A stretch of 64,000 bases of DNA, from assembly GCA_015654675.1 (NCBI GenBank), contig JAATGM010000047.1:62001-126000 (forward strand), in the 5' to 3' direction. A program made the position numbers and the translations under genes. Positions within the stretch are counted from its first letter, which is position 1. The number at the start of each line of letters is the position of its first letter. Of this stretch, positions 3,910 to 11,686 are shown piece by piece. This stretch comes from Planctomycetota bacterium. GTDB taxonomy: Bacteria; Planctomycetota; Phycisphaerae; UBA1845; UTPLA1. Under the pieces are notes generated by a model. That model was given only the letters and a program-made list of their open reading frames with translations, was not told the origin of the DNA and ran no database searches.

Positions 3910-4733
3910 GTCTGTTTCCCCGCTCCGCAGCAACCGTGCTCAGATGCCGCGACCGCCGTCTTGGCGACGTCCGGCCAGTACGGCTTATCGGCGTCAGCGA
4001 AGCCGCCGCCGTCGTAACGATCGTGGTGCCGGACCCACGCCATGCCGAACGGAAGCTCTCCTTCATTTCGCCCCTTCGGAACCAGATCGAGCAGCGTGTA
4101 TGTCCCGATCAAAGCATCAAGGCCGCGCCCATAGGTCGAGTAGCTATGAAAGAGACGGCCACTCGGATCTTTGGCGAACACACTTGCCCCCGGCGCTTCC
4201 TCGCTCGGAAATTCCTGCATGGCATAGTTGTAGTCCACCGCTCCGGTGTCCCGCTGCTGCGGCGTAAACGACGCGTGGAAGTCGTAATTGAAATCGCTTC
4301 CGAAAGACGAAACCCACCGGAATCGCCAGCCCATGCGTTTCTTGAAGGCCTCGATCTTCGCCAGCGGCGCTCGCGAGACCATGACCAGCGCCACGTCCCG
4401 CGCTTGAAGGTGCGGAACCGCGCCGTCGATGTGATCGACCACGAAGGAGCAGCTTGGACAGCCCTCGGCCCATGCCGGGCCGAACATGAAGTGATAGATG
4501 GCGAGCTGGCTGCAGCCGCCGAACAGGTCGCCGAGCGTCGCTTTCCCGTCCGAAGAATCGAACACGTAGTCCTTTGTGACGGGTTTCCAGGGCAACTCGC
4601 GCCGCGCCAGCGCGAGCTCGTCGTGCTGCCGCGTCAATTCCTTCTCTTTGGCCAGAAGCGCGACCCGCGCTTTCAGCCACTCGTCGTGGCCAACAACCCT
4701 GTGCCCGGATGCCTGCAATGTATTCGCGCTCAT
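3906..4733 (-). CDS. DUF899 family thioredoxin-fold protein
   Basis: 275 residues. The pattern '[26 protein letters not shown]' (around 80-105) with a CPSC redox-like pair and '[19 protein letters not shown]' is characteristic of DUF899, a thioredoxin-like family of unknown substrate. The C terminus ends in a Cys-rich tail (HGCCGAG), an extra feature that might bind metal. Start ATG 4733 overlaps the stop of the SRPBCC gene (ATGA), so the two are probably translated together. It belongs to the ArsR-led operon. In many bacteria DUF899 genes sit beside SRPBCC and ArsR genes, as here. Confidence 0.88.
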
Positions 4734-5224
4734 CGCTTTCCATCCTTCCGTTCATTGCGAGTCGCCCCGCCCGCCTTGCGTTCCGCCAGTTCACGAATCC
4801 GCTTCAACCCGTGCGCCCAACCATCCGGCATGCCGTCGCGCATCTCGGGCGGAATCAATCCCATCGCCCGGTGCACGAGTGTCAGCCGCGTCACGCCGCC
4901 TTCGGCCTTCAGGCGATATTGCACGTGGTTGATCGCCGGAAACGACATCGGCATCGGCCCGTAAAGCTCCAGCAAATTCGGCGGTTTGATCACCTGAACG
5001 TGTCCCCACAGGTGCCCCGTGTTGTTGCCGAGGTCGCGATACCACCGCCCGCCCGGCCACGGCTCGACCTTCATCGGAAACGGCTTGCCGTCCGGCAGTT
5101 GGCTGCCCGGCCCCAGCTCTTCCAGCACCACCTCGAATGTCACTTCGATCGGCGCGGCAATCTCCGTCTCCTTGCGGATTTCCAGCGTCTGGACCGCTTC
5201 CTGCTCCAGGGTGCTCGTCGTCAT
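4730..5224 (-). CDS. SRPBCC (START/AHSA1-like) domain protein
   Basis: 164 residues from ATG 5224, with AAGGAG seven bases upstream; a GTG at 5227 is closer to the ribosome site than ideal. The sequence opens with 'IRKETEIAAPIEVTFEVVLEE', the first strand and helix of the helix-grip hydrophobic pocket fold, and ends with a long C-terminal helix. Such proteins bind small hydrophobic ligands. It follows the ArsR gene by 12 bases and overlaps the DUF899 gene by 4. The ArsR plus SRPBCC pair is a common bacterial arrangement; the ligand is unknown. Confidence 0.85.
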   Translation of the reverse strand: MTTSTLEQEAVQTLEIRKETEIAAPIEVTFEVVLEELGPGSQLPDGKPFPMKVEPWPGGRWYRDLGNNTGHLWGHVQVIKPPNLLELYGPMPMSFPAINHVQYRLKAEGGVTRLTLVHRAMGLIPPEMRDGMPDGWAHGLKRIRELAERKAGGATRNERKDGKR

Positions 5225-5236
5225 CACAATTCTCCT

Positions 5237-5596
5237 TTATGCCTTCTCATCCGGATTATTAGCCCGCTCTTTCGCCTTGCGTTCCGCCCGCCGCTTGATT
5301 CGATCAAGCTGCTGCGTCCAGAATCGCTCATACGCCTTCACCCAGTCGTGCACCGGCTTCAACTGGCTCGCCTGAAGTTCGTACAGCCGTTGCCGCCCGT
5401 CTTTGGCCGCCGTCACGATTCCAACCTCGCGCAGTACGCCCAAATGCTTCGACACGGCCGGCTGCGGCAGCCCGAGGGCCACGACAATCGTCCCGACTGC
5501 GAGTGCCCCGTGACGGGCCAGCAGATCGACAATCTGTCGCCGCCGCGGCTCGGCGATGGCGTTGAATACGTCCGTGGTCGTGGCTGCTCTTGGCAT
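5237..5596 (-). CDS. ArsR-family winged-helix transcriptional repressor
   Basis: 119 residues. The winged helix-turn-helix covers residues 5-85: 'IAEPRRRQIVDLLARHGAL', recognition helix 'LPQPAVSKHLGVLREVGIV' and the wing 'AKDGRQRLYEL'. There is no Cys pair in the recognition region, so this is not a classical arsenic or metal sensor. A basic tail follows (RIKRRAERKAKERA). It is the first gene of a five-gene operon with SRPBCC, DUF899, CPVC membrane and DinB-like proteins. The start ATG lies six bases after a -10 box and has no Shine-Dalgarno, so the mRNA should be leaderless. A palindrome between the -35 and -10 boxes is the likely autoregulatory operator. Confidence 0.9.
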   Translation of the reverse strand: MPRAATTTDVFNAIAEPRRRQIVDLLARHGALAVGTIVVALGLPQPAVSKHLGVLREVGIVTAAKDGRQRLYELQASQLKPVHDWVKAYERFWTQQLDRIKRRAERKAKERANNPDEKA

Positions 5597-5664: not shown

Positions 5665-6837
5665 TCAGACTTTGCGAAGTGCTTCGATGATGTTCGTCCG
5701 CGCCGCCTTGAACGCCGGCGCGATCCCGCCCACCACACCCACCAACATGGAAAGCCCGATTGCGATCAACACCACCCCCGGCGTGAGCTTCGGATCATAC
5801 GCGTATGCGGTCCAGGTGATGTCCGACAGATACTCCTGCCGCGGCCGCTGGTAGAGCACACTGGCAATCAGCCCGGTTGCGCAGGCCAGTCCGCACATGG
5901 CAAACGACTCGATGAGAAACGCCAGCACGATCGCGGTTCGTCGGAACCCAACTGTCCGCAGCATCGCGATCTCGCGCCGCCGCCCGTCCACGGCCGCATA
6001 GAGCGTGTTCGCGACGGCGAAGATTGCCCCAAACGCCATGACCCCGATCAGGATCGACACCAGCAGAACAATCTCGCGCATCCGCGCCGAGAGTTCGGCG
6101 TAGTACTCCGGTTCGCGCCGCGCATCGAGTCGAACCGACGAGCCCATGATGTAGCGAATGGCTTCGTCGGCCTGCTCCGGATTCGCCAGTCGCATGGCCG
6201 CACTCGACACGAACCGCCGGCCGTATGCATCGCTCAGGATCGTCCGCGGCGCCCAGATCTCGTTTTCCAAAGCGCCGCCGCCCGCCTCGAACACACCGAC
6301 CACGCGGAATCGACGGTTATGCGAACGCCCGAGCAGAACCTCATCCCCGATCTGCAGATTGGCATACCGATCGCGCGCCGCCTTGCCGACGACGAGTTCC
6401 AACGCCCCCGGCGCCATCTTCCGCCCCTCAACGGTCTGCACCTCGTTGTGCACAACCCATCCAACCGGATCGATGCCACGGATGGCCACATTGGATCGGG
6501 CCCCATTCGCCCCTCGTCGTGGAATCGACGCCTGAACGCACAACTCCGGACTGATCAGCAGTTCGCCCGCCGCATCGCGCGAAATGCCCGGCGTCTGCAT
6601 CAGCCGCGCCGACTCTTCCGGCATGATCAAGCTCGTGCTCTCCGCCTTCGACCCCGGCTTGAGCACCAGCAGATTGGCCGCCGAACCCGTCGCCGCCAGC
6701 GATGCCCGAATCCCTGCCGCGAATGAAAGCAGCACGCACAGCACGAACACGACGATCGTCACCACGACAAACGTGAGCAGACTGTTCAGCTTCTGCCGCA
6801 GCAGACTATGCCATGTGTAATACAGCGGTAGACGCAC
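5665..6837 (-). CDS. FtsX-like ABC transporter permease
   Basis: 390 residues from GTG 6837 (GGAAGTG six bases upstream). N-terminal membrane helix ('LLTFVVVTIVVFVLCVLLSF'), a large periplasmic MacB-like domain (about 45-255), then three C-terminal helices around 'SILIGVMAFGAIFAVANTLY', 'LAFLIESFAMCGLACATGLI' and the final 'VVLIAIGLSMLVGVVGGIAP'. The motif 'DGRRREIAMLRTVGFRR' after the second helix is typical of FtsX permeases. It lies 39 bases after the second permease gene, so the two probably form a heterodimer. No ATPase is encoded in the window, so the partner must come from elsewhere. Confidence 0.88.
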   Translation of the reverse strand: MRLPLYYTWHSLLRQKLNSLLTFVVVTIVVFVLCVLLSFAAGIRASLAATGSAANLLVLKPGSKAESTSLIMPEESARLMQTPGISRDAAGELLISPELCVQASIPRRGANGARSNVAIRGIDPVGWVVHNEVQTVEGRKMAPGALELVVGKAARDRYANLQIGDEVLLGRSHNRRFRVVGVFEAGGGALENEIWAPRTILSDAYGRRFVSSAAMRLANPEQADEAIRYIMGSSVRLDARREPEYYAELSARMREIVLLVSILIGVMAFGAIFAVANTLYAAVDGRRREIAMLRTVGFRRTAIVLAFLIESFAMCGLACATGLIASVLYQRPRQEYLSDITWTAYAYDPKLTPGVVLIAIGLSMLVGVVGGIAPAFKAARTNIIEALRKV

Positions 6838-6876: not shown

Positions 6877-8067
6877 TCACTCCAGATTTCGCAAGGCACC
6901 CACAACCGTCGCGCGCGAAGCGTTCCATGCCGGCCACGCCGCCGCCAGCACGCCCACGATCAGCGCCATCGTTTGCGCCTTGATGCAAGTCGACAGCGGG
7001 ATCGTCAGATGCTGAATCAGCGGAACGCTCACATCGCCCAGCGGCGTGTACCCGAATCCGATGAACGGCACCGCCGCCCCGATCAATCCGCCCAGCATGC
7101 ACAAGCTCAGACTCTCCATCTGAATGAGCCCGAAAATGGCGGCGGGGGAGAAGCCGATCGATCGCAGGATCGCGATTTCGCTGCGTCGGTCGCGCAGATT
7201 CATGTTCATCGTGTTAGTAGCGGCAATCACCGCCACGATAATCGTGATGGCCGAAAGCCGGCTCAGGTTGCGCGGCATGTCGAAAAACTGCGTGATGAAC
7301 TCATTGAGAAAGGCCTTCTCATCTTCTGTCTTCGTCGGATCGGGAAACGCAGCGAAGTGCGCATCGATTGTCGTGCGAAAATGATCCAGATCACCCTTCG
7401 ACCCACACCGAACATAGAAAAACGAAACCCAGTCGATTGAGTTCCACTCCGCCGCCGAAGGCGTCGCCTTGATCGACTCCTCGAGATAGTCGAGCCGGCA
7501 GTAATTCGTGACTGGGTCCCGCCCCGGCCGCGCCGCCGTCGCAACAACCCGAAACTCGAGCAACAGGTAGGGGGGCAGCGACGATCGAATATTGACCCGA
7601 TCGCCGGGCTTCAGGCCGAAGTTGGCCGCCGTGGCCGGACCGATCAGAATCGATTGTCGATTGCTCCGCCATTGTGCCGCTTCTTCGGTCGTCAGTTGCT
7701 GATCGGGAAAGGTCTTCACGAAAGTGTCGACATCCGCCGCAAGCGTCGTCAGCGGGCGTGGATCGTTCTCCACCTGTCCGCCGATCCAGCGCATCCCGCA
7801 AACGGAAAGAATCTTTTTCCCTGTGGGGTCCAATGCCTCAATTCTCGCGCGATACCCCGATGGGAGCGGGTAGATCACCGAAGCGCTGTTCGCCACCACC
7901 AGCCGCAGTTGCTGCGCCGAGCTGTTCATGAAGCCGTCGATCCCGTCAATGACGGCCGTCGACAACACGTAAATCGTGATGGGCAGCCCGACGGCCACGC
8001 AGGTAAGTGCCATGCGGAGTCGGTTTCGAGTGAGATTGCGGAGGATGTAGACCAGCCGAAGCGGCAT
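6877..8067 (-). CDS. FtsX-like ABC transporter permease
   Basis: 396 residues. I start it at ATG 8067, where 'GGAG' lies 6-7 bases upstream and the protein opens with 'MPLRLVYILRNLTRNRLRMA', the usual beginning of FtsX permeases; a longer frame to 8184 would add a non-conserved head and run into the divergent gene. Layout as in its neighbour: one N-terminal helix, a periplasmic domain, and three C-terminal helices with 'DRRSEIAILRSIGFSPAAI' between the second and third. First gene of the permease pair. Divergent from the DUF3419 gene across about 90 bases. Confidence 0.88.
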   Translation of the reverse strand: MPLRLVYILRNLTRNRLRMALTCVAVGLPITIYVLSTAVIDGIDGFMNSSAQQLRLVVANSASVIYPLPSGYRARIEALDPTGKKILSVCGMRWIGGQVENDPRPLTTLAADVDTFVKTFPDQQLTTEEAAQWRSNRQSILIGPATAANFGLKPGDRVNIRSSLPPYLLLEFRVVATAARPGRDPVTNYCRLDYLEESIKATPSAAEWNSIDWVSFFYVRCGSKGDLDHFRTTIDAHFAAFPDPTKTEDEKAFLNEFITQFFDMPRNLSRLSAITIIVAVIAATNTMNMNLRDRRSEIAILRSIGFSPAAIFGLIQMESLSLCMLGGLIGAAVPFIGFGYTPLGDVSVPLIQHLTIPLSTCIKAQTMALIVGVLAAAWPAWNASRATVVGALRNLE

Positions 8068-8159
8068 TCCGACTCCACTTTGGACAATGTTATTCCGCCG
8101 AACTCTACCATCGTGCCCACAGAACGGAAAAACAATGGTTTCACCACTCCGACAGGGGT

Positions 8160-9389
8160 ATGATTGTGATACTCGCCGGCGCATTCGCCGTTTCCTACGG
8201 GCTGAAAGCGAGGATCTGGTTGCAACGATTCTCCAATGACGCGGTGTCGCCGAGTGGCGGCAACGGATCGGCGCGTACCCTCCGTTCCCGATTCCGCGAC
8301 GCGTTTGTCTATAGCCCGCTCGCCTTTGCCGAAACCGCAGAATCGATCGAACTCGTGCAGCGCGGTCTGCGCGTTCAGCCCGGCGATACGGTCGCCGGCA
8401 TTACCAGCTCCGGCGATGTCCTGCTCTCACTCCTCGCGAGCAATCCCAAACGCATTCACGGCTTTGACGCCAATCCCACCCAGACAGCCCTCGCGCGCCT
8501 CAAGCGCGAACTCTGTACCGACATGCCGGTGGACGAAGCCATGTCGTTTCTCGGCCTCACCGCCGAACCGCCCGACCAACGACTCAGAAAATGGCACGCC
8601 CTCAAGCCGCGCCTGGGACCGGCCGGCGACCTGCTCGAGCGATTCGACATCGGCGCCGGCCTCCTCAATTGTGGAACGACGCGCAAGCTATTCCGGCTGA
8701 CCGTGCTCGGCCTCCGCCTCTGCCTCGGAAGCGACGGCTTTCGCCGCCTCGTCAGTCCCGACTCGACGCCCGCCTCGCGCATGCAGCTGCTCAACGAAGC
8801 TCGCCAGCGCGGCATCTACCGCTGGCTCATCCGCCCGACCCTCGCCGCCGGCCGCCGCCCCTTCCAGCATTTCCTCTACCCGCCCGCACTGTGCAGTAAC
8901 TCCGATCACCCGCAGCGGGCTCTCAACGACATCCTCGAGAGCTACTCGCGGCTCTTCGAAGTCGGACTGGCCGAGAACCCCGTCTTCGAACGCTTCATGA
9001 CTGGCCGCGTTCCCGATGAGCAAGTCCGCCAGCTTTATTCCGACGAGGCCTGGCCGGTGCTCAGGCAGCGCATCGGCGACATCAGTTTCGAAACATTGCC
9101 CATCACCCAGGGCTTGCTCGAACTGAGTCCGTGCTCGACCGACGCGTTCTACCTCTCCAACGCGCCCGACTACCTCCGTCCCGACGGCCTGCGTTCCCTG
9201 TCCGACGCACTATCGCGCGCCTCCCGCCCCGGAGCCCGCGTCTTCTATCTTTCGCTCGACTCGCAATGCCCGTTCGAATGCTGCGGTGTGCCGATCCCCT
9301 TTGCGCGATGCAACGACGTCGAGCAATCGCTCACTCGCGCCGATACGGTTGGCCTTTACCGTTTCATTGGAGTGCGTTGTGGTGCGTAA
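8160..9389 (+). CDS. DUF3419 protein, BtaA-like 3-amino-3-carboxypropyl transferase
   Basis: Up to 409 residues. The SAM-binding signature of DUF3419 is clear: 'GDTVAGITSSGDVLLSLL' (75-92) followed by 'IHGFDANPTQTALARLKRE' (99-117), matching the GG/GD and acidic 'D.NP.Q' motifs of BtaA. BtaA moves the 3-amino-3-carboxypropyl group of SAM onto diacylglycerol in betaine-lipid synthesis; the acceptor here is unknown. A second conserved stretch is 'AFYLSNAPDYLRPDGL' near residue 325. The start is uncertain: the first 40 residues look non-conserved, ATG 8160 has no ribosome site, and TTG 8220 or GTG 8244 are alternatives. Its stop overlaps the radical SAM start, and a second, divergent DUF3419 gene follows that. 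Confidence 0.85.
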   Translation: MIVILAGAFAVSYGLKARIWLQRFSNDAVSPSGGNGSARTLRSRFRDAFVYSPLAFAETAESIELVQRGLRVQPGDTVAGITSSGDVLLSLLASNPKRIHGFDANPTQTALARLKRELCTDMPVDEAMSFLGLTAEPPDQRLRKWHALKPRLGPAGDLLERFDIGAGLLNCGTTRKLFRLTVLGLRLCLGSDGFRRLVSPDSTPASRMQLLNEARQRGIYRWLIRPTLAAGRRPFQHFLYPPALCSNSDHPQRALNDILESYSRLFEVGLAENPVFERFMTGRVPDEQVRQLYSDEAWPVLRQRIGDISFETLPITQGLLELSPCSTDAFYLSNAPDYLRPDGLRSLSDALSRASRPGARVFYLSLDSQCPFECCGVPIPFARCNDVEQSLTRADTVGLYRFIGVRCGA

Positions 9390-10698
9390 GATCGTTCTAA
9401 TCGATCCCGCCACCCGTCAGGTGCTCGCGCATCGCGGGCAGCTCGATGGCCTGCGCCGATTCCGCTACTGCCCGCACCTCGGTCTGCAGGCGTTGGCCGG
9501 CGCCTCGCCGAGCCGCGAAGTCCGCATCATCGACGAGCGCCTCGAACGATTCGATCCCGCATCGCTCGAAGCCGACTTGGTCGGTATCACCGTGCGAACC
9601 GGCCTGGCGCCGCGCGCCCACGAACTCGCCCGTGTCTTCCACCAACGCGGCATTTCGGTCGTCTTTGGCGGCCCCTATACAACCCTCACGCCAGACCTAG
9701 CCCTCGCCGACCCGGCCGTCCGCTGCGTGGTCCGCGGACCAGCCGTCGGCGCATGGAACGACCTGCTCGCCGATATCGAGGCAAATCGCGCGCAGCGAGT
9801 CTACGAAGGCAAAGCTCAGGCCGGCGTCACCATCAGCCACGTCGCCGCACCCACCGGCCCCTATCGTCCATCGACCGCCCTCGTCCAGATTACCCAGGGC
9901 TGCAACTTCAAGTGCAGCTTTTGCGTCATCCCCAGTCTCTACGAAGAGCGCTTCGTCGCCCCGTCCGTCGAGCAGGCCCTCGCTGCCATCGCCTCGACCG
10001 AAGCCCGGCTGCTCGCATTCGTCGACGACAACCTGATCGGCAACCTCGTCTTCGCCCGTCAGCTTTTCGCCGGTCTGCGCGGCATGGGAAAGCGCTGGTT
10101 CTGCCAGGCCACGCTGAACGTCGCCCGCGACCCGGCGCTCGTCGCCCTCATGTCCGAGGCGGGCTGCGTCGGCGTCAACATTGGCATCGAGACCATCAAC
10201 TCCGCCATCTGGGAGCAGCAAAACAAGCGCCAGAACTTCAGTTGCGAACTCACCGCCGCCATCCAGCGGCTTCACGACCATGGCATCTGCGTCTCCGGCG
10301 GCTTCATCTTCGGCTTCGATCAGGACGACGTCACCGTATTTGACCGCTCGCTCGATTTCATGGCCCGCAGCAAGCTCGACTTCGCCGCCTGCCACATCCT
10401 GACGCCCTATCCCGGTCTCCCGTTCCATGAGCAACTGAAGCGCGAAGGCCGCATCCTGACCGACGATCTCAGCCGCTACAGCACCTACGAAGTCGTCTTC
10501 CAGCCGCTGCAGATGTCACCCGATCAACTGCAGGAGGGCTTCAATCGCGTCGTCCGCGAGTTCTATTCCATCCGCCGCGTCTGCCGCCGGTTCGTGAGCG
10601 CCGTACAGCCGCTCGGCCTGTCATCCGCCGCCTTCTCGGCCTTCGGCGGCTACGTCGTCCACTCGAATCTCAATCGCGGACTGCCGATCCACGCCTGA
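9379..10698 (+). CDS. B12-binding-type radical SAM enzyme (DUF4070-like C terminus)
   Basis: 439 residues from GTG 9379, with GGAG seven bases upstream; the start lies inside the end of the previous gene. Residues 1-145 resemble a cobalamin-binding Rossmann domain ('EADLVGITVRTG', 'VVFGGPYTTLTP'), though I see no DxHxxG His ligand. The radical SAM core begins at 165 with the cluster motif GCNFKCSFC (Cys175, 179, 182; CX3CX2C), then 'LAFVDDNLIGN', 'GVNIGIETIN' and 'GGFIFGFDQDD'. The C terminus ('HILTPYPGLPFHEQL', 'VVFQPLQMSPDQLQEGF') matches the DUF4070-type extension. It needs SAM and a [4Fe-4S] cluster, probably for methylation or C-C bond chemistry. Being flanked by two SAM-dependent aminocarboxypropyl transferase-like genes suggests one shared pathway. 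Confidence 0.9.
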   Translation: MVRKIVLIDPATRQVLAHRGQLDGLRRFRYCPHLGLQALAGASPSREVRIIDERLERFDPASLEADLVGITVRTGLAPRAHELARVFHQRGISVVFGGPYTTLTPDLALADPAVRCVVRGPAVGAWNDLLADIEANRAQRVYEGKAQAGVTISHVAAPTGPYRPSTALVQITQGCNFKCSFCVIPSLYEERFVAPSVEQALAAIASTEARLLAFVDDNLIGNLVFARQLFAGLRGMGKRWFCQATLNVARDPALVALMSEAGCVGVNIGIETINSAIWEQQNKRQNFSCELTAAIQRLHDHGICVSGGFIFGFDQDDVTVFDRSLDFMARSKLDFAACHILTPYPGLPFHEQLKREGRILTDDLSRYSTYEVVFQPLQMSPDQLQEGFNRVVREFYSIRRVCRRFVSAVQPLGLSSAAFSAFGGYVVHSNLNRGLPIHA

Positions 10699-10702
10699 GC
10701 GC

Positions 10703-11686
10703 ATGGCATCCCTGACTCACGCATTGCTGACCGAAGATGAAGCGGTCCTGCTGCACGCGCTCGAACCGTCGGCGAATGATCGTGTGCTCGCCCTCTTCGC
10801 TCGTGGCAACGGCGACGCCGGCTTGGCCCTGCTCCAAGCCGGTCCAACGGTCGTATTCATGCACGACCTGTTCGATCATGAATCCCTGACGTCGCAATTT
10901 CAGTTGAAGCAGTGGCTCTTTCGCCATCTCGATAATGAAAAGCTGCGAACATTCCTCGCCATCGACGAGGGCAGGCAACCAATCGATCGCCTCGCAATTC
11001 TGGACGAAGCGCTGCGCGAACTCCCGCCACCGTGCCATGAGTTCTGGCATCCCCGCCGCGCCTGCGTCCGTGCGGGAATGGGCCGCAACGACAGCACCGC
11101 TGCCTGGTGCCGCACCCTCGCTAAATTCCTCGCGGTCTACGAAAAACTCCCGCGCCCGCTCCAGATCGCTTCACTATTCGCCGGCCGCTGTCTCGCCCCG
11201 TTCTACTTCCCGCGTGAAGAGCGGGAATTTTCGCTCGGCTATCGCCAGTTGATGCAAGCCCCGCAATCGATGCTAAACAGGTTCACAAGTCGCGCCGACC
11301 GCAATCTGGAAAAGCTGATCCCCTACGCAACCTTCCAATACCTCTCACTGCATGGCCAGGAATCCATTCGATCCGACCTCAACCGCATCCAACTCATCGA
11401 TCAACTCCCGGCCGGACACGGCTGCAACAAGGTCTACTTGTCGAACATCATCGACTACCTGCCTGAAGCCCGGTTTCTCGAATTGCTGCGTCAGATCGCC
11501 GCCAGTGCCAAACGGCCGTGTCGCGCCTTCGTTAACTCGTCCTACGACTCGCCCGAGCCGCACCCATACCTGCGATCCGCGGAAAAATCCGGTGTCGCAA
11601 GAATCGACACCGGCCGGACCAATCACGCCCGATCAACAGACCGAGTCCGCGCCTATCCCGGTCTATCTATCATCGAGCTGATCTAA
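10703..11686 (+). CDS. Divergent DUF3419-like protein
   Basis: 327 residues, starting five bases after the radical SAM stop without a ribosome site, so probably translated by reinitiation. It repeats the layout of the first DUF3419 protein: 'DRVLALFARGNGDAGLALLQ' (26-45) then 'VVFMHDLFDHESLTSQFQLK' (50-69) in place of the SAM loop and 'D.NP.Q' motif, and 'KVYLSNIIDYLPEARFLEL' near residue 250 in place of 'FYLSNAPDYL'. The acidic residue is kept but the NP.Q part has become FDHES, so SAM binding may be altered or lost. It may be a second transferase with another acceptor or a non-catalytic partner. Homology to DUF3419 is my reading of these motifs. Confidence 0.65.
   Translation: MASLTHALLTEDEAVLLHALEPSANDRVLALFARGNGDAGLALLQAGPTVVFMHDLFDHESLTSQFQLKQWLFRHLDNEKLRTFLAIDEGRQPIDRLAILDEALRELPPPCHEFWHPRRACVRAGMGRNDSTAAWCRTLAKFLAVYEKLPRPLQIASLFAGRCLAPFYFPREEREFSLGYRQLMQAPQSMLNRFTSRADRNLEKLIPYATFQYLSLHGQESIRSDLNRIQLIDQLPAGHGCNKVYLSNIIDYLPEARFLELLRQIAASAKRPCRAFVNSSYDSPEPHPYLRSAEKSGVARIDTGRTNHARSTDRVRAYPGLSIIELI

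Follow-up and report, generated by a model that had tools for sequence, protein, structure and literature searches.

A radical SAM gene between two DUF3419 homologues, beside a private permease pair, forms a candidate biosynthesis-and-export locus in two Phycisphaerae genera

In a 64,000-nucleotide stretch of a Planctomycetota genome (GenBank assembly GCA_015654675.1, contig JAATGM010000047.1, positions 62,001 to 126,000; hereafter the window), three adjoining genes, A, B and C, encode a DUF3419 protein of the BtaA superfamily, a B12-type radical S-adenosylmethionine (SAM) protein with a CX3CX2C motif, and a strongly diverged second DUF3419 homologue. The three genes also stand in this order in another genus of the family, where they likewise adjoin a divergent pair of permease genes. 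Each part of the locus is of a known kind. We propose that the five genes may constitute a small biosynthesis-and-export locus in which A and C, then B and then the permeases act on one product, a reading of the whole chain to which we assign a probability of roughly 35%; what the locus makes and moves is probably a modified lipid or small molecule.

The trio lies on the plus strand, with A at 8160..9389, B at 9382..10698 and C at 10703..11686. With B starting at GTG 9382, A and B share 8 bases (9382-9389), and the start of C lies 4 bases past the stop of B, confirming the overlapping or touching genes described in an earlier note on this DNA. The second trio genome (G497, 'MAG: Phycisphaerae bacterium isolate MAG.52', contig JAKLKO010000038.1) carries orthologues that are 65% (A), 74% (B) and 53% (C) identical, with the gene order and the 8-base A/B overlap as in the window. 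The operon-like character that the note had ascribed to the trio was thereby borne out, and the gene order is not, as it had allowed, unique to one genome. GTG 9382 is the likely start of B, and the G497 locus shares both the overlap and the start residues. The start of A (8160, 8220 or 8244) is uncertain because the G497 orthologue aligns only from about residue 21-25, with an in-frame stop upstream; ATG 8160 overlaps the adjoining permease open reading frame (ORF), and TTG 8220 or GTG 8244 are better starts.

The trio is rare. Of the 17 genomes searched in the family, 2 carry A, and C, searched as a two-row profile, was detected in 2 of 114 genomes of the order; the wide conservation across Planctomycetota that the earlier note had envisaged did not emerge. 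The genomes were sampled evenly and many of them are incomplete, which leaves absence of the trio elsewhere unproven. Across the class, C was matched in 5 of 298 genomes, three of them weakly (E 8.2e-5 to 9.4e-4), and because the loci of these three (L038-L040) contained no ORF matching our DUF3419 hidden Markov model (HMM), the weak matches were counted as chance. A was matched at E 1e-15 in 3 of 397 class genomes, the third of which has, on a contig with neither B nor C, a DUF3419 gene beside a methyltransferase-domain gene, and at E 1e-5 in 34 of 392 phylum-sample genomes, including the window's own, the others at 22-47% identity. Scanning genome contigs with A as a single protein gave 51 stretches that matched a pattern and no confirmed relative, and a scan with a two-row alignment, which used two patterns and so gives no broad negative, returned only JAKLKO010000038.1. 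The ratio of nonsynonymous to synonymous change (dN/dS by NG86, window against G497; rough, as dS is near or above 1) was 0.21 for A, 0.20 for B, 0.34 for C, and 0.11 and 0.15 for the two permeases. These low values, together with the recurrence in another genus, argue that the trio, C included, has been maintained by purifying selection, more than chance would give. The guanine-cytosine (GC) content of the trio/permease unit follows each host genome, giving no sign of recent arrival.

Profile comparisons bore out the proposal that the outer proteins are both DUF3419 homologues. A passed the gathering cut-off of PF11899 in Pfam (E 1.3e-25, 90.8 bits; cut-off 28.2) and aligned by hhalign with 16 DUF3419 proteins at 99.8% (E 5.5e-28), and it keeps the glycine loop ITSSGD and the acidic loop FDANPTQ. 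We aligned the A and C orthologues with 34 DUF3419 relatives, dropping the two rows of L067, where a single DUF3419 gene appears as two fragments; nine columns were invariant in 34/34. A keeps seven of them, and the other two are lost in both orthologues, one being a late Leu that is Tyr293 in A. A PDB sequence search with A gave no sensible match, and its predicted structure (mean predicted local distance difference test score, pLDDT, 35.2) was too poor for use.

C is more diverged. It matched PF11899 over residues 6-119 only (E 6.5e-6, 26.0 bits), missing the cut-off by about 2 bits. The DUF3419 HMM, built on both A orthologues together with about 35 further DUF3419 ORFs but not on C, gave the G497 orthologue of C a score of 74 bits (E 3e-21) and recognised a domain at each end, and hhalign aligned C with 16 DUF3419 proteins at 98.3% (E 1.3e-14) over 291 columns. 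By profile, C belongs to the DUF3419 superfamily, with homology over most of its length. Its model was poor (mean pLDDT 50.5), and Foldseek with this low-confidence model found no match at E 0.001; VIA-align rows were mostly methyltransferases or enzymes of the class I SAM-methyltransferase fold (Z up to 12.9). The earlier note had allowed that C might have no structural similarity to DUF3419; by profile C is a DUF3419 protein, and the matches of its low-confidence model are of the class I fold. The glycine loop of C carries a two-residue insertion, ARGNGDA, identical in both orthologues, which argues that C is not decayed; six of the nine invariant columns are kept in both, one Gly is Asp in both, and two more are lost in the window copy only. 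The earlier note had seen in C a DUF3419-like protein with a changed acidic loop. The homology holds, but in the alignment the acidic residue Asp55 (invariant in 34/34 relatives) is kept, the G497 orthologue has Phe in place of the His of 'HDLFD', and the clearer changes lie elsewhere, in the glycine-loop insertion and the loss of a central stretch. Near the C-terminus A reads LSNAPDYL, C LSNIIDYL and the G497 C FSNVVDYL, a site at which 10 of the 34 relatives have LSDIFEY and six SN..DW or SN..DY. PHROGs gave no match for A or C. Compared directly by hhalign, A and C matched weakly (10.7%), and recent duplication of one from the other was rejected on this ground.

B passed the Radical_SAM cut-off (PF04055, E 9.2e-12, 45.9 bits; cut-off 29.5), and its CX3CX2C motif comprises Cys176/180/183 counted from 9376, or C174, C178 and C181 counted from the likely GTG start. 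It fell just under the cut-off of 22 for PF13282 (DUF4070) with 21.7 bits. The best NCBIfam profiles were PhpK (71.4 bits), HpnJ (58) and BchE (56.1), and none of the curated cut-offs for PhpK, HpnJ, BchE or TIGR04072 was reached, the scores lying far below them (at best 71.4 against 600). A PDB sequence search returned 6fd2, 'putative apramycin biosynthetic oxidoreductase 4' (E 4.2e-8), which we take to be AprD4. The two-row B profile matched 108 of 294 phylum genomes at E 1e-40; the best relative outside the trio scored 290 bits, and the closest paralogue within the genome of the window 159 bits. Among 36 DUF3419 loci, the trio locus alone held a B-like ORF (E 0.01). A B12-dependent methionine synthase activation domain is encoded in the window's genome, so cobalamin is probably used by the organism. 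In other phylum genomes, relatives of B stand side by side at two loci (L101, L103), in rows of at least three B12-type radical SAM ORFs. A CX3CX2C ORF at L074, presumably YgiQ-like, was set aside.

The permease pair lies upstream of the trio and divergent from it in both the window and G497. Its members, both FtsX/LolCE-like and on the minus strand, are encoded at 6877..8184 (PF02687, E 1.3e-13; start probably 8067) and 5665..6837 (PF02687, E 6.7e-17; PF12704, E 2.2e-16); the first is 79-80% identical in G497 and 55% identical to a core copy elsewhere, the second 74% and 56%. When the 17 family genomes were searched with one permease, 12 matched at E 1e-30. The core type (53-57% identical) is present in 11 of the 17, both trio genomes included, and the 79%-identical type was confined to the two trio genomes, with none found in the other 15, so we call it private. 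At each of five core loci compared (G000, G497, G436, G487 and G492) four permeases stand in a row with an ATP-binding cassette (ABC) ATPase at one end and an HlyD-type protein at the other; a single ATPase and a single HlyD were checked with Pfam. The third and fourth permeases of this row are the counterparts of the private pair. In midpoint-rooted trees the private copies from the two genomes group together as sisters (100/100), separate from the five core copies. Between the window and G497, the private permeases (80 and 74% identical) are more conserved than the four core permeases (63-69%), which may mean that they are under tighter constraint or that the unit has passed from one lineage to another. 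Should 8220 be the start of A and 8067 that of the permease, the divergent stretch 8068..8219 between permease pair and trio may, from its position, be their shared promoter region. Downstream of the pair, at 4730-5596 on the minus strand, an ArsR-type regulator adjoins an AHSA1-type protein (Pfam).

To place A and C relative to BtaA, we compared them with other DUF3419 proteins in trees. Six relatives form one clade (100/100), and at four of their six loci (L062, L063, L048 and L071) a methyltransferase-sized gene follows the DUF3419 gene; a methyltransferase domain was recognised at L062 by Pfam and at L048 (G159) by 43% identity to the L062 protein. This clade is the likely BtaA group, judged in a set made without a characterised BtaA and by motifs that we take to be those of BtaA. 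The favoured trees put A and C outside it. Taken alone, C joins a 12-row group including L044, L045 and L055 (Shimodaira-Hasegawa-like approximate likelihood ratio test, SH-aLRT, 100), and A goes weakly with L041 and L043 (91); in the full tree A pairs with C (91/80), but both branches are long, a condition flagged by the tree program itself, and each of them alone goes to a different place. An approximately unbiased (AU) test did not reject membership of the likely BtaA clade for A (p 0.381) or C (p 0.165), and the exclusion of A from that clade was accordingly not upheld.

Other genomes of the phylum contain a recurrent DUF3419 cluster (L044, L045, L055 and, in part, L043), with a PPDK/phosphoenolpyruvate-utilising phosphotransferase (L043 and L045, confirmed), an HMG-CoA reductase (L044 and L055) and an AMP-binding enzyme (L044). 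The L044/L045/L055-type cluster also has a downstream protein of about 450 amino acids with no Pfam match above cut-off, and it looks like an isoprenoid-linked DUF3419 pathway. At L041 (4316-7902) the start of the DUF3419 gene overlaps the end of an MMPL-family transporter gene. On a Rhizobium plasmid (L060, CP041205.1, 835-5155), a DUF3419 gene comes after a metallo-beta-lactamase-fold gene and a 'CoF synthetase' gene and before a hypothetical protein gene, the CoF synthetase and the hypothetical protein having no Pfam match at 0.001.

Taken together, these features suggest a scheme for the locus. A, as a class I SAM enzyme of the DUF3419 superfamily, would transfer a 3-amino-3-carboxypropyl (or other SAM-derived) group to a lipid or lipid-like acceptor, and C, which keeps some family-invariant residues lost from A, might be its partner subunit or a second transferase. 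On the resulting molecule B would then carry out radical C-C chemistry, be it methylation, cyclisation or rearrangement, and the permease pair, perhaps with the ATPase and HlyD of the core exporter, would move the product through the inner membrane or deliver it to the outer membrane. The scheme is supported by the shared order of trio and permeases in two genera, by low dN/dS in all five genes, by the restriction of the permease paralogue to the two trio genomes, the core type being present in 11 of 17, by the DUF3419 profile matches of A and C and by the probable use of cobalamin. Other DUF3419 genes likewise adjoin the MMPL transporter or lie near lipid/isoprenoid genes. BtaA is a SAM:diacylglycerol 3-amino-3-carboxypropyl transferase (PMC3972451), and the non-methylating B12 radical SAM enzymes include some acting on lipids (PMC13142503, a preprint that covers HpnJ and proposed lipid substrates). 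The range of reactions open to cobalamin radical SAM enzymes includes methylation, ring contraction, thioether formation and ring formation, as listed in a review (PMC13331322). The chain is least secure as to which group is transferred and whether the acceptor is a lipid.

Several points weigh against this chain. The evidence comes from two genomes, possibly of a single origin, and the aminocarboxypropyl transfer, the radical chemistry and the shared product are steps that we infer. We know of no DUF3419 function outside BtaA. The earlier note had credited A with intact SAM motifs; the PF11899 match and both loops stand, but the motifs are not fully intact, for the Asp of 'ED', present in 34/34 relatives, is Ser62 in both A orthologues, and the common 'WD' motif is missing from A in the alignment. 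For B, described in the note as a B12-binding-type radical SAM enzyme with Cys175/179/182, the PF04055 match and the CX3CX2C motif hold, but the numbering differs by one and the B12-binding profile PF02310 scored 28.3 bits, under its cut-off of 32.1. No DUF3419 ORF (E 0.1) was found beside close B relatives at any of 10 loci, which comprised G057 and nine of the sample's 11 best. Finally, no core-type ATPase or HlyD (E 1e-4) was detected in the window, the preceding 10 kb or the G497 trio contig.

Two alternatives concern what A and C do. They could be partners in an obligate heteromer, neither active by itself, with SAM bound by one of them and the acceptor site shaped or held by its partner; METTL3-METTL14 is the model for such a heteromer. 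We regard this as a tentative possibility: none of the nine invariant columns is lost from both proteins, A lacking two, C one in both orthologues and two more in the window copy, and the identical altered loop of the C orthologues speaks against decay, but over so few positions disjoint losses can be chance, the A model is unusable, and C, with its G-x-G loop and acidic residue, may bind SAM itself. It is also conceivable, if unlikely, that A, C or both are ordinary SAM-dependent methyltransferases on a side branch of DUF3419 and not aminocarboxypropyl transferases. The favoured trees, which keep both out of the clade with BtaB-like neighbours, and the methyltransferase-type fold matches of C point that way, yet the AU test lets either protein join that clade, and a class I fold cannot distinguish methyl from aminocarboxypropyl transfer.

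If the genes belonged to a degenerate or relocated pathway for the betaine lipid diacylglyceryltrimethylhomoserine (DGTS), A would be BtaA and the methyltransferase would be encoded elsewhere, as the PF11899 domain of A, its admissibility in the likely BtaA clade and a DUF3419 gene beside a methyltransferase-domain gene in the same order (G663) might suggest. However, a BtaB-like query (the L062 protein) matched neither trio genome at E 1e-5, though the control G159 was found at 43% identity and other methyltransferases may exist; at this threshold the absence of BtaB stated in the earlier note holds across the genome. A radical SAM enzyme and a second DUF3419 protein are, moreover, not needed for DGTS, and we consider this explanation highly improbable. 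A neutral neighbourhood, with A, B and C doing separate jobs and co-inherited from a recent common ancestor, would fit the restriction to two genomes of one family, the unequal rates of change (53 to 74% identity) and a GC content that betrays no recent arrival. What makes it improbable in our view is that the order and the 8-base A/B overlap are identical in both genomes and the permease duplicate was found only with the trio; in addition, the next three window genes past C had no match on the G497 contig, although that contig ends 1.4 kb past C and 0.2 kb past the permeases.

Beyond the proposed biosynthesis-and-export chain, one could imagine a split heteromeric DUF3419 enzyme (A with C, the parts of the active site divided between them) that, with a dedicated B and an exporter pair, yields a new class of C-C-modified, SAM-derived membrane lipids in a few Phycisphaerae-like bacteria, an extension to which we give little weight. 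A pairing of DUF3419 with radical SAM was not found in a literature search that left out most subscription papers, and DUF3419 is, to our knowledge, known almost only through BtaA. The trio locus and the other DUF3419 neighbourhoods suggest several unstudied pathways of the superfamily in this phylum, and the locus is a compact five-gene unit suited to expression and lipidomics.

Compared with known systems, A resembles BtaA of the BtaA/BtaB pathway in its DUF3419 superfamily membership, ITSSGD glycine loop and FDANPTQ acidic loop, whereas the trio differs in having no BtaB-like match, in the broken ED and absent WD of A, and in the added radical SAM protein and second, diverged DUF3419 protein. 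B shares with PhpK, HpnJ, BchE and the ladderane-type TIGR04072 proteins an N-terminal B12-binding-like region, the CX3CX2C motif and a partial DUF4070-like tail, but its NCBIfam scores lie far below the curated cut-off of each. Like the LolCE/MacB-type exporters, the private pair consists of two FtsX-type permeases with a MacB-like periplasmic domain; unlike them, it has no ATPase or HlyD gene nearby, both of which accompany the core copy elsewhere at 5/5 loci. The other DUF3419 loci of the phylum likewise place DUF3419 beside lipid, isoprenoid or transport genes, namely the set of a PPDK-like phosphotransferase, an HMG-CoA reductase and a membrane protein, or else an MMPL transporter, but the stretches retrieved hold only one DUF3419 gene each, and none of the 35 loci has a B-like radical SAM gene.

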